From positions 2,232,001 to 2,296,000 of the forward strand of contig NZ_JBGKAC010000001.1 of assembly GCF_041361465.1 (NCBI RefSeq): a DNA stretch of 64,000 nt, written 5' to 3'. The position numbers were made by a program, and so were the translations under genes. The stretch is from Halobaculum sp. MBLA0143 (GTDB taxonomy: Archaea; Halobacteriota; Halobacteria; Halobacteriales; Haloferacaceae). A model generated the notes under the pieces. The model saw only the letters and a program-made list of their open reading frames with translations. It searched no databases and was not told where the DNA came from. Position 1 is the first letter of the stretch. Every line of letters starts with the position of its first letter. Below are positions 50,611 to 56,944 of the stretch, one piece after another.

Positions 50611-50683
50611 GGGCGTGTGGCCAAGTGGACACGGCGAGCGGTTCCTAACCGCTAGATCGCGGGTTCGATCCCCGCCACGCCCG
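50611..50683 (+). tRNA. tRNA-Arg(CCT)
   Basis: A 73-nt tRNA. The acceptor GGGCGTG pairs with CACGCCC. The anticodon stem AGCGG/CCGCT encloses loop TTCCTAA, anticodon CCT (reads AGG). The T arm is GCGGG-TTCGATC-CCCGC. No CCA is encoded. Copies of its 3' end recur downstream, and an accessory islet follows it. Confidence 0.95.
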
Positions 50684-51045
50684 CTGTCGTGTCGAGCGGA
50701 GCGAGACCGACAGCGGTCGGTGGCGGGGATCGAAGCAGGGAGCGGAGTGAGCGTTAGCGAACGGAGCGACCGTGGTTCGACTTCCGTCACGCCCGTTCGT
50801 CCTCACTCGCTTCGCTCGTTCGTCCTCACGGGCGTGACGTAGTCACACTCGCTCCCTCCGGTCGCTCGCGTGACTCCCGTCACGCCCGGTGCGAGGCCGA
50901 ACGGAGTGAGGCCTCGATAGGCGAGCGGCGAACGCAGTGAGCCGCGAGCCATGTCGTGTCGAGTGCCAGCGAACGGAGCGACCATGGTTAGATCTCGTCG
51001 TCAGGAAGTACTCGGTGAGTGGAGCGATGCTCGGGTCTGGTGGAA
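50684..51045. repeat. Palindrome-rich region with tRNA-Arg 3'-end remnants
   Basis: About 360 bases without a gene. GGTTCGACTTCCGTCACGCC at 50773-50792 and CTCCCGTCACGCCCG near 50874-50888 resemble the tRNA T-arm/acceptor end. A 10-bp inverted repeat GGGCGTGACG (50830-50839)/CGTCACGCCC (50878-50887) can form a hairpin, and TTCGTCCTCAC is repeated nearby. This is the kind of debris left by repeated integration at a tRNA gene. Confidence 0.55.
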
Positions 51046-52461
51046 TTAGTCTGCCACTGTCTTGGTAGAATCAGAGCTGGACGATCCTGTTCCGGGGAGA
51101 ATATCGATCTCCGATTCCGTTCTAGATGAAGCAGTCTCCTCACAAGGCACGCTCTCTCGATCAAAGAAGTCGTCTAGTTCTATGTCGAACCCTGTCAGGA
51201 ACCCTGTTACTCGAATCTCCGTCTTCTCCACTGTTCCAGGTTGAATCACAACACGACTACTCCAGACGAGTTCCCGTGCACTGTCACTGATCGAACTGAT
51301 GATGCTGTCGATTCGGCCGGACGGAGAGTCCACCTCCGGGCCGGCGGTAAACGTCAGGAGAGCCTGATCCGCACGCCTAGACTCGATGTCAACGTTAGTG
51401 TACTGAAGTAGCCGATCAGACAATTCATCGTAGGTTTCTCCAAGTGCTGTGTCGATTGTCGAGTCGAGCAGAACAGAACGGTTGCCGTTGCTGAGCTTTT
51501 CCAGTAACGACTCTGCTTTCTCTGTCGTGTAGAACTGACCGATGTCTAAACAGATACTTGAAATGAGGTGGGCGATGTTGTTGTTAATTCGACATAATGC
51601 CTCACTCATCGAGACCGCCGGGTCTGCAGAGACTCGATCAGCGTCCAACACGGCGAGAGTGTCAGAGACGGCATCTAATCGTTCTAGTCCGTTTCGAGCC
51701 CGGATCACCTTCGAGTCGTCTGTTCTGAACGGAAGTGTAGCGAGAGAGACCGTGACAGCACCCGACTCCTGTGCCATCTTGGCGAGTTCGGGGGCGACCG
51801 CAGTCCCCGTTCCGCCGCCGAGGCCAGCAACCACAAAGACAAGGTCCGCGTCACCGATCATCTGTCGAATTACCGGCCGTGAGTTGTCGACCGCCTTGCG
51901 AACTGTCTCGACATCACCGTCTGCGCCCTGACCGTCGAACTTGTCTTTAGCGAGCACCGCCCGGGTGTCCGCAGCGTTGGCGTTGAGATGGGTGATGTCG
52001 GTGTCAATGATAGCTGTCTGACCCGTGTCGTCGTTGCGCTGGTAGACCTCACTGGCGATTCTGACGCCACCACCACCGCAGCCAGCAACTAAGATATCCG
52101 CGTCGTCGTCCTCGTCAAGAAGGGTGCCGAGGTCACTCTCGACGAGAGTGCTGACCTCTCCGAGTGAGTTTCCACCAACGATCATACGGCCAACAGCGTC
52201 GTTACTGTCGAACGTCTCTCGCGCCTCCAGAGACATTCGGTCCACCTCTACTCGGTCTCGGACCTCTTCTAAGGGGAGAGTCTCTTCACCCTCAGTAGCT
52301 TCTGCTTGGATCTGGTTGTGATCTAGCCGCGGCTCGGCGTCAATTCCGTCACGGAGAAGTTCACGGACGAACTCAGAACGACTTCCGAAGCCTCTCGCCT
52401 CCTCCTTTTTATCAATCTCGTCTAGAAGGGGCTCTGGCACCCGCACGTTCAGTGGCTCCAT
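51046..52461 (-). CDS. FtsZ/tubulin-fold GTPase with N-terminal ribbon-helix-helix domain
   Basis: A 471-residue fusion. Residues 1-45 (MEPLNVRVPEPLLDEIDKKE, then SRSEFVRELLRDGI) match an RHH DNA-binding domain. After a linker (46-122), residues 123-423 follow FtsZ in order: T1 GCGGGGVR (127-134), IIDTDITHLN (151-160), T4 GLGGGTGTA (213-221), VTVSLATLPF (236-245), T7-equivalent CLDIGQF (304-310) and IRVTGF (416-421). In FtsZ the T7 loop reads NLDFAD; here Asp306 remains but the second Asp is Gln309, so GTP hydrolysis may be weak. The disordered Ser-rich tail resembles FtsZ tails. It is divergent from a RelE-like gene. Confidence 0.8.
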   Translation of the reverse strand: MEPLNVRVPEPLLDEIDKKEEARGFGSRSEFVRELLRDGIDAEPRLDHNQIQAEATEGEETLPLEEVRDRVEVDRMSLEARETFDSNDAVGRMIVGGNSLGEVSTLVESDLGTLLDEDDDADILVAGCGGGGVRIASEVYQRNDDTGQTAIIDTDITHLNANAADTRAVLAKDKFDGQGADGDVETVRKAVDNSRPVIRQMIGDADLVFVVAGLGGGTGTAVAPELAKMAQESGAVTVSLATLPFRTDDSKVIRARNGLERLDAVSDTLAVLDADRVSADPAVSMSEALCRINNNIAHLISSICLDIGQFYTTEKAESLLEKLSNGNRSVLLDSTIDTALGETYDELSDRLLQYTNVDIESRRADQALLTFTAGPEVDSPSGRIDSIISSISDSARELVWSSRVVIQPGTVEKTEIRVTGFLTGFDIELDDFFDRESVPCEETASSRTESEIDILPGTGSSSSDSTKTVAD

Positions 52462-52467
52462 CTTGTC

Positions 52468-52479
52468 TTACAATCGTAA
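52468..52479. promoter_or_regulatory. TTAC-N4-GTAA inverted repeat, candidate operator
   Basis: TTACAATCGTAA lies between the RHH-FtsZ start (52461) and its putative TATA box (52483-52492, minus strand GAAGTATCC). RHH proteins usually bind short inverted repeats at their own promoter, so this is a candidate self-regulation site (inference). Confidence 0.35.
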
Positions 52480-52558
52480 CACAGGATACTTCACCTTGTC
52501 GGTGTTTAGAGGGTTTGTTTCGTCTATCCAATAGCCGTTAAGATACGCATCCGCCAGC

Positions 52559-52566
52559 AATTTACG
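52559..52566 (+). promoter_or_regulatory. TATA-like box for the RelE-like gene
   Basis: AATTTACG centred 30 nt before GTG 52593. It lies in the same 131-bp intergenic region as the divergent RHH-FtsZ promoter. Confidence 0.45.
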
Positions 52567-52592
52567 ACCCCAGTGCGACGTACAACCGTTGC

Positions 52593-52877
52593 GTGAAGGT
52601 AGAATTCACATACGCCGGACAAGAGAGCTTGCGTCAACTCAACTCGGGCGCACAGGACGCAGTTCTCTCTGTTCTAGATGATCTCAATGGTGGTCATAAA
52701 GACCGTTCAGAAGTGTTGGAAAAAGATGCAGGAGGAAAGTACCACTATTTCGAGTTTGAGTTCTCTGGTGAGAGCTACACTGTAGTTGTGGATTTGACCC
52801 GGCACTACAGCGGGCTTGAGGACGAACTCGCAGTCGTCGATATGGGGCCGACATCTGACTTTTTGTTGGATAGTTAG
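52593..52877 (+). CDS. RelE/ParE-superfamily-like small protein
   Basis: A 94-residue protein from GTG 52593. The N-terminal helices MKVEFTYAGQESLRQLN and QDAVLSVLDDLN, then the strand run KYHYFEFEFSGESYTVVVDL and ELAVVDMGPTSD, follow the RelE/ParE toxin layout. Basic catalytic residues are few, so toxicity is not certain. No co-directional antitoxin is present. The divergent gene begins with an RHH domain, the usual antitoxin type for RelE/ParE toxins. Its 3' end overlaps the convergent membrane protein gene by 4 bp. Confidence 0.6.
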   Translation: MKVEFTYAGQESLRQLNSGAQDAVLSVLDDLNGGHKDRSEVLEKDAGGKYHYFEFEFSGESYTVVVDLTRHYSGLEDELAVVDMGPTSDFLLDS

Positions 52878-53431
52878 TGATCAGTAGAGACACTGACCTG
52901 TTCTGACGGTGGTCGAGTCGTGTGCTCGTCTTCCAGCGATATCTGTTCCAAGTTGTCGCTGTGTTTCTCGTCTATAGAGAGGTTAGACTCCAGTTCGCAC
53001 AGTACCTCGATACTACTCTCGTGAAGTTCGATAGCCGTCTCGCGCAACAACGCTACGTTCGGAGGCGAGATCTCCTCACAGTCGTCGATTGCCGCGAGAA
53101 GTCGCTGGAACTGGTTGCAACGAGAGTAGTACCGCACCACGGTTTCGTTTTCGTCACGGGAGAGGAGGCCGAGTGAGCCTGCATTCGATGTGTACACGGT
53201 GGTTGTGACCGTATCTTTCGGAAGAACGACATTAGAGGCGGACGGGTCTACTGTTTTTAATCTCGTCGCAACCGGTTCGGTGTGCTCGGAGTTTTCTCTA
53301 ACTTCGACGTATAAACTTCGTCTGAGCTGTTTTCGTCGCCTGCTCTGTTTGTACACTGTATGTAAAACACGAGCGGCGACACCGCCGGCTGCACCCGCCA
53401 AGGCACTGACAAAGAGCGAGACACTAGCCAT
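52874..53431 (-). CDS. Membrane-anchored hypothetical protein in the islet
   Basis: A 185-residue protein. The N-terminal hydrophobic segment (about 4-24, VSLFVSALAGAAGGVAARV) is a signal anchor and is followed by the basic stretch KQSRRRKQLRR, which predicts the rest stays cytoplasmic. The remainder mixes beta-like and helical regions with acidic tail residues (DEKHSDNLEQISLEDEH). No family is recognised. Lower-GC codon use matches the islet. A TATA-like TTTATTTTG precedes ATG 53431. Confidence 0.6.
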   Translation of the reverse strand: MASVSLFVSALAGAAGGVAARVLHTVYKQSRRRKQLRRSLYVEVRENSEHTEPVATRLKTVDPSASNVVLPKDTVTTTVYTSNAGSLGLLSRDENETVVRYYSRCNQFQRLLAAIDDCEEISPPNVALLRETAIELHESSIEVLCELESNLSIDEKHSDNLEQISLEDEHTTRPPSEQVSVSTDH

Positions 53432-53526
53432 CGTCCTGTAGAAGTTCGCAGTTCAAAATAAAGGTATGTGGAGGCCAGTAGATCCACCACACGATTTACC
53501 ACCCGACCGCCCCCACACCCGGACAG

Positions 53527-55907: not shown

Positions 55908-56537
55908 GTGACAGACGACACGACAGACGACGCGGACGCGCCGGCGGTCACGGCAGCGCGGCCGGACAGCCCGATCACGACGACCGGAACGGACCACGTC
56001 ACCATCTGGGGCTCCAACGAGGAGGACACCCTCGCCTTCTACCGCGACCTGCTGGGGATGCCGTTGGTGTTGCGCCAGCCGAACTTGGACGACCCCTCAC
56101 AGACACACCTGTTCTTCGACACCGGGGACGACCGCATCCTGACAGTGTTCGTCGGCGACCGGCCGTCGGCGGCCGGCCAGCGTCCGGGGACGGGTGCGGT
56201 CCACCACCTCTGTTTCTCCGTCGCTCCCGGGGCGTTTCGGACGACGATGGAGGCGTTGGAAGACGACGGTCGCGGCTACAACGTGTTCGACCGCGGCGTG
56301 TTCCTCTCGCTGTACACCCGGGACAACAACGGGCTCGTGATCGAGCTGACGACGGACAAGTACGACATTCCGGACGGGGAACGGGGTACGGTGTTGGCGA
56401 CCGCACAGCGACTCCGGGAGGCCGACGGGGCGGAGTTCGCCGAGGACGAACACCTCAGACGGGCGCTGGAGGAACACGGCTACGACGCCACCCCGAACGA
56501 TCTGCCGGACGCACCGAGCGGGGCCGGCCTGGAGTGA
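55908..56537 (+). CDS. Glyoxalase/dioxygenase-fold (VOC) protein
   Basis: A 209-residue VOC-superfamily protein from GTG 55908 (TATA-like GTTTATG near 55878). First module: GTDHVTIWGSNEEDTLAFYR with DLLGMPLVLRQP. Second: GAVHHLCFSVAPGAFRTTM with GLVIELTTDKYD, whose His and Glu residues are expected metal ligands. Such proteins are ring-cleaving dioxygenases or glyoxalase-like; the reaction is unknown. The last codons, GGCCTGGAGTGA, are the founder of the 31-bp tandem array that follows. Confidence 0.8.
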   Translation: MTDDTTDDADAPAVTAARPDSPITTTGTDHVTIWGSNEEDTLAFYRDLLGMPLVLRQPNLDDPSQTHLFFDTGDDRILTVFVGDRPSAAGQRPGTGAVHHLCFSVAPGAFRTTMEALEDDGRGYNVFDRGVFLSLYTRDNNGLVIELTTDKYDIPDGERGTVLATAQRLREADGAEFAEDEHLRRALEEHGYDATPNDLPDAPSGAGLE

Positions 56538-56944
56538 GCGCGGAGACGCGAACGACGGCCTGGAGTGAGCGCGGAGACGCGAACGACGGCCTGGAGTGAG
56601 CGCGGAGACGCGAACGACGGCCTGGAGTGAGCGCGGAGACGCGAACGACGGCCTGGAGTGAGCGCGGAGACGCGAACGACGGCCTGGAGTGAGCGCGGAG
56701 ACGCGAACGACGGCCTGGAGTGAGCGCGGAGACGCGAACGACGGCCTGGAGTGAGCGCGGAGACGCGAACGACGGCCTGGAGTGAGCGCGGAGACGCGAA
56801 CGACGGCCTGGAGTGAGCGCGGAGACGCGAACGACGGCCTGGAGTGAGCGCGGAGACGCGAACGACGGCCTGGAGTGAGCGCGGAGACGCGAACGACGGC
56901 CTGGAGTGAGCGCGGAGACGCGAACGACGGCCTGGAGTGAGCGC
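56526..56944. repeat. 31-bp minisatellite, 13 full units plus a 16-bp partial
   Basis: The unit begins GGCCTGGAGTGAGCGCGGAG and continues for 11 more bases, repeated head to tail without spacers and with no visible mismatches. It begins inside the last codons of the VOC gene, so every unit carries that gene's end and stop codon. A 31-bp period shifts frame each unit, so long antisense ORFs through it are not real. The absence of unique spacers excludes a CRISPR array. Confidence 0.9.

Follow-up and report, generated by a model that had tools for sequence, protein, structure and literature searches.

A probable FtsZ-extended antitoxin in a haloarchaeal genome: a ribbon-helix-helix part fused to a divergent FtsZ domain

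A single gene in the window (the whole 64,000-nucleotide stretch of DNA analysed here) joins a ribbon-helix-helix (RHH) N terminus to an FtsZ domain, and its product is probably an antitoxin that has gained a full FtsZ domain and belongs to a type II toxin-antitoxin module of the RelE/ParE type. Homology to stand-alone antitoxins, a putative operator and a ParE gene beside a homologous fusion in Halanaeroarchaeum make an FtsZ-extended antitoxin the best reading, over a CdrS-type regulator or a partition protein. The fusion gene, its parts and its candidate operator are:

51046..52461, (-) strand: RHH antitoxin-FtsZ fusion gene, 471 aa, from ORF, Pfam and AlphaFold2 analyses.
52240..52461, (-) strand: RHH antitoxin part, complete by alignment, aa 1-74 (RHH at aa 4-40 plus a toxin-binding-type tail ending EEVRDRVEVD); alignable over its whole length with 16 stand-alone antitoxins, profile score 52.9 bits.
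51184..52116, (-) strand: divergent FtsZ domain, aa 116-426 (the GTPase and the C-terminal subdomain), with part of its nucleotide and T7 residues lost, from FtsZ profile and Foldseek.
52464..52483, (-) strand: candidate operator TGTGTTACGATTGTAAGACA, 2 nt ahead of the ATG, matching the palindrome of RHH-ParE modules at 13/16 positions.

The fusion gene is one open frame from ATG to stop without an internal stop codon. An earlier note on this DNA had proposed a single-chain fusion, with an RHH/CopG pattern at the N terminus and FtsZ elements in residues 123-423, and HMM searches bore this out: Pfam placed RHH_1 at aa 4-40 (2.2e-7, 31 bits, cut-off 20.5) and Tubulin/FtsZ at aa 123-276 (5e-27, 95.8 bits, cut-off 33), and a haloarchaeal FtsZ profile covered aa 116-426 (147.5 bits). 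The TIGR00065 ftsZ model also matched, at 130 bits, far under its equivalog cut-off of 295. Codon-position GC of 0.64/0.43/0.59 is consistent with a coding frame inside low-GC DNA. AlphaFold2 modelling was performed on a shallow alignment, for which a viral-contig search with the FtsZ domain supplied 72 loci that served only as alignment rows. The model gave pLDDT >90 across most of aa 121-270, the GTPase core, and about 80 for the two RHH helices; confidence was low in the C-terminal subdomain, where the order of elements agrees with FtsZ. Every listed Foldseek match of the model was an FtsZ (best 4.5e-22), and the Tubulin/FtsZ fold with its GGGTGT signature was identified by Pfam, AlphaFold2 and Foldseek alike. 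The source genome, from a halophilic archaeon, comprises 3.58 Mb in two contigs, the larger of which carries the fusion, and encodes nine tubulin-superfamily genes that include ordinary FtsZ1-type and FtsZ2-type genes.

That unfused RHH and ftsZ genes can adjoin would suit an artefact of assembly or a frameshift that merged two genes, but this explanation is largely refuted by a second natural fusion. Halanaeroarchaeum sulfurireducens WP_079978807 (459 aa) has the same RHH-FtsZ architecture, is annotated only as FtsZ and is encoded on a 124-kb plasmid, with complete plasmids available from two strains. With a homologue of the fusion present in both strains of this second genus, a frameshift artefact becomes very unlikely. 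The two proteins are 27% identical overall and have in common a SLG..L linker and an ET.PL.E motif in the tail, both absent from stand-alone antitoxins, which suggests one origin; in the FtsZ tree the fusion branches were too long for placement, and tests of one origin were uninformative.

A taxonomic survey, which had been proposed as a check, showed that the architecture is rare, with two species represented in several hundred haloarchaeal genomes. A two-fusion profile revealed no third fusion scoring above ordinary FtsZ proteins in 392 genomes of the order, or in sets of 170, 146, 125 and 26 genomes from four families (overlapping sets); with thresholds placed higher than FtsZ scores, this survey could have passed over a fusion that is more divergent. 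Apart from the Halanaeroarchaeum fusion, plasmid and phage collections contained only an RHH-ftsZ pair of Salinibaculum that is not fused. No relatives were found when viral contigs were searched with the fusion and toxin, and a first genome-contig search with the full-length fusion gave no match.

The RHH part is, by alignment, a complete antitoxin, a point absent from the earlier note, as are its putative toxin-antitoxin operator and the divergent RelE/ParE-type candidate gene. A genome-contig search revealed 15 haloarchaeal loci at which a whole small RHH protein matches fusion aa 1-71 or 1-74 (35-42% identity, E down to 1e-12), and the end-to-end alignment of aa 1-74 takes in the toxin-binding C-terminal tail as well as the RHH. 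Further stand-alone RHH proteins of the same kind were found in plasmid searches, several annotated beside a RelE/ParE toxin. At 16/16 loci examined, an 87-aa RelE/ParE-like gene, broken in several cases, overlaps the 3' end of the RHH gene, and one of these toxins matched Pfam ParE_toxin (1.4e-9). The source genome also carries two nearly identical orphan RHH antitoxin copies (L049:4070-4312 and near L049:8900-9154) in a duplicated segment flanking ABC-transporter genes, with no ParE gene nearby.

We compared the fusions with CdrS using a profile made from stand-alone antitoxins only. The window N terminus scored 52.9 bits and the Halanaeroarchaeum fusion 75.5, compared with 27.9 for the genome's own CdrS, the product of the CdrS-like gene upstream of its ftsZ2. 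These scores bear on the idea that the fusion is a division regulator, in which a CdrS-like RHH factor has merged with its usual neighbour FtsZ2 and filament state would act on division-gene transcription. The RHH gene cdrS adjoins ftsZ2 in haloarchaea, this synteny is widespread in archaea (PMC7439475), and unfused RHH-ftsZ pairs occur on the Salinibaculum plasmid and in Thermoplasmata/Methanomassiliicoccaceae MAGs. However, the RHH part scored only 16.7 bits against the CdrS equivalog model (cut-off 100), the genome retains a separate cdrS-like gene and ftsZ2, and the putative operator of the fusion is that of toxin-antitoxin modules, so we consider a division regulator unlikely. In the Thermoplasmata/Methanomassiliicoccaceae pairs the ftsZ gene is short (272-282 aa) and directly preceded by the RHH gene (L108:2754-4129, L109:942-2317 and L118:3444-4672).

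The predicted operator supplies the strongest evidence for a fused RHH domain that still reads the antitoxin's DNA site. The palindrome TGTGATACnnnnGTATCACA lies just upstream of the start codon in 14/15 stand-alone modules, at 15-16/16 positions; in the remaining module the contig begins too late to include it. A predicted site precedes the gene in both fusions, as in type II RHH/ParE modules, and the copy in Halanaeroarchaeum, TGTGTTACAACCGTACTACA, shares its half-sites with the window copy, lies 4 nt before the ATG and also matches at 13/16 positions. For each fusion's intergenic region, this match was reached by 4/5000 dinucleotide shuffles. A relaxed pattern, TGTGNTACN4GTANNACA, occurs once in the 3.58-Mb genome, at the fusion site. 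Across 337 genomes a reversed control pattern gave 0 matches; with the relaxed pattern, 23 further loci were examined, of which 15 carry an RHH antitoxin and 14 of these 15 also a recognisable ParE. The relaxed pattern was composed after the fusion sites had been seen, so the fairer number is that of the shuffle test, which used the independent consensus. The stretch 52462-52592, which had been suggested for a gel shift on the view that the fusion binds DNA, thus contains a strong operator candidate by sequence, and the fusion is probably a DNA binder.

The Halanaeroarchaeum fusion has a divergently encoded ParE toxin (WP_079977872; Pfam 2.5e-11) with 51% identity to the usual toxins of the stand-alone antitoxins, which suggests that the fusion there took the antitoxin's place beside its toxin. 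The surroundings of the window copy include:

52593..52877, (+) strand: divergent 94-aa ORF, weakly RelE/ParE-like by hhalign and ParE HMM, candidate toxin.
52874..53431, (-) strand: 185-aa orphan ORF with a hydrophobic N terminus, in the same low-GC island, no matches.
50611..50684, (+) strand: tRNA-Arg (CCT), beside the low-GC island.

The 94-aa ORF, 131 bp from the fusion gene and divergent to it, is a candidate toxin only, and a highly divergent one. Its hhalign score to ParE was 22.1, attained by 0/500 nulls, and with a ParE HMM it ranked first among 5599 sequences (14.9 bits; best null or next unrelated sequence 7.0). It has no Pfam match and lacks the conserved toxin residues GDYR and HR..Y, and these absences count against the antitoxin reading. 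Single-sequence AlphaFold2 gave a pLDDT of 60 with no significant Foldseek match, and among the 392 genomes only its own locus and one marginal match were recovered. The 185-aa orphan adjoins it tail to tail; neither ORF had a tblastn match in plasmids. Two further points stand against the antitoxin reading: the toxin genes of the fusions are divergent whereas those of the stand-alone modules overlap downstream, and there are only two natural examples.

Because the fusion gene falls inside a low-GC stretch of about 2.7 kb (about 50750-53450; GC 0.49-0.61 compared with 0.62-0.76 around it) that adjoins the tRNA-Arg gene, it was probably acquired. No convincing direct repeats (att sites) flank this island, and PADLOC returned nothing convincing for the locus. 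Between the tRNA and the island, positions 50720-50992 hold degenerate repeats around AGCGAACGGAGCGACC, and 50720-50741 repeats part of the tRNA 3' end in inverted orientation. A perfect 31-bp tandem repeat of 13.5 copies (CGGCCTGGAGTGAGCGCGGAGACGCGAACGA) spans 56525-56944, at the 3' end of a 240-aa ORF and just past it.

We next consider the FtsZ domain, which over about aa 116-425 is 32-33% identical to haloarchaeal FtsZ2-type proteins. Compared with FtsZ2, the window copy has VR for the NN after the glycines of T1, DTD for NTD in T3, A for the last G of T4, DAD for DNN in T6 and INN for MDQ at the H7 Asp. The earlier note had read LDIGQ as a T7-like loop whose second Asp is replaced by Gln; this assignment did not hold up, since the haloarchaeal FtsZ profile aligns T7 (nlDfaD) with EKAESL, about nine residues further on (posterior about 0.5-0.6), and MAFFT places LDIGQ at T7 only with large gaps. 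The NxDxxD catalytic pair is not intact with either EKAESL or CLDIGQ, and both T7 catalytic Asp residues appear lost. The domain is thus without the T1, T3 and T6 Asn and the H7 and T7 Asp, and a DNA-tethered dynamic filament or GTP-switched regulator, as had been suggested, finds no support in this copy. With the guanine-contact and T7 catalytic residues lost, a GTP-driven filament is unlikely here, and the domain probably no longer hydrolyses GTP. The Halanaeroarchaeum fusion retains T3, T4, T6, H7 and both T7 Asp residues (DIDFGD).

The mostly intact GTPase motifs of the Halanaeroarchaeum copy and its location on a 124-kb plasmid would suit a one-protein partition system, in which an RHH centromere binder (like ParR) and a cytomotive filament (like TubZ) together segregate a plasmid. 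We regard this as very unlikely, given that the Halanaeroarchaeum plasmid already encodes ParA and that the window copy sits in a roughly 2.7-kb island of the largest contig with its GTPase residues lost. Moreover, the locus has one operator, and no iteron array with units of at least 14 nt was found there.

It is possible, if doubtful, that the window copy is a decaying mobile remnant, a once-working fusion whose FtsZ domain and toxin are drifting; this agrees with the antitoxin reading of the family, though not of this copy. The very long window branch in the FtsZ tree (6.3 changes per column), the lost motifs, a toxin candidate without conserved residues and the low-GC island beside a tRNA are all consistent with decay. 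In contrast, three intact frames with coding-like composition, preserved operator half-sites and a well-conserved RHH and antitoxin tail argue against it.

If the fusion is an FtsZ-extended antitoxin, its RHH part would dimerise and bind the TGTGNTACnnnnGTANNACA operator before its own start codon, repressing the divergent promoters, while the tail after the RHH would hold the divergently encoded toxin. The fusion, its antitoxin homology, the conserved operator and, in Halanaeroarchaeum, the neighbouring ParE gene are established at the sequence level; DNA binding, autoregulation and neutralisation are suggested by homology to the stand-alone antitoxins. In type II modules an RHH antitoxin that stands alone, with about 80-90 aa, is normally enough to repress and to neutralise, and control of location or stability through the division apparatus is for this reason the most economical idea for the added domain. 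By co-assembly with host FtsZ or binding to it, the domain might tie the level, stability or location of the antitoxin to division, and loss of this contact would free the toxin. Such a division-linked sensor or tether is a tentative guess. We are more hesitant still about a module that guards FtsZ, in which the antitoxin's FtsZ domain would co-assemble with or sample the host filament and a disturbance of division, for example by a viral or plasmid factor attacking FtsZ, would release the RelE/ParE toxin. The GID motif of archaeal FtsZ is the SepF docking site (PMC8178401); its absence from the Halanaeroarchaeum fusion and its alteration to EIDIL in the C terminus of the window copy argue against an FtsZ role. 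If functional, the fusion would tie a toxin-antitoxin module physically and directly to the archaeal division machinery. In the openly searchable literature we found no antitoxin described as joined to a cytoskeletal domain, and the analysis corrects the public annotation of the Halanaeroarchaeum homologue, listed as plain FtsZ.

Other FtsZ fusions were also observed. L096:1153-3084(-) (G241) and L085:3374-4900 (Haloarcula sp. JP-L23 plasmid CP050019) encode intact FtsZ2-type domains behind an N terminus of winged-helix look (SQETRHSILMAILGHPHHLASR; by eye, no Pfam match), and group together in the FtsZ tree, making a further kind of FtsZ fusion with a DNA-binding-like part. At L105:1483-3441(-) (G367), a 652-aa protein combines an FtsZ domain with a protein kinase domain at its N terminus (Pfam Pkinase 1.4e-21).

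Among known systems, TubZRC and ParMRC employ a DNA binder and a filament-forming NTPase as two genes, with an iteron centromere and an active NTPase, and TubR is a winged-helix protein. The fusion likewise pairs a probable DNA binder with an FtsZ-type NTPase domain, but does so in one gene and, in the window, with the NTPase motifs lost. TubZRC, the comparison drawn previously, is not the nearest; in haloarchaea the RHH gene cdrS lies beside ftsZ2 (PMC7439475). In the CdrS-FtsZ2 operon, as in the fusion, an RHH factor is genetically linked to FtsZ; the genes there are separate, the RHH belongs to a different subfamily and CdrS regulates division genes. Archaeal FtsZ1 and FtsZ2 have the fold and GGGTGT in common with the window fusion, which differs by its antitoxin N terminus and by the loss of nucleotide, T7 and GID motifs. 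In the CbtA/CbeA toxin-antitoxin system FtsZ is the toxin target (PMC5624674), whereas the fusion has an FtsZ domain inside the antitoxin. Haloarchaeal RHH plus RelE/ParE modules (for example Halomicrobium urmianum LCY71_RS20525/20520) resemble the fusions in RHH, tail, palindromic operator and partner toxin (clear in Halanaeroarchaeum), and differ in that the fusion antitoxin is longer by about 350-400 residues, including the FtsZ domain.
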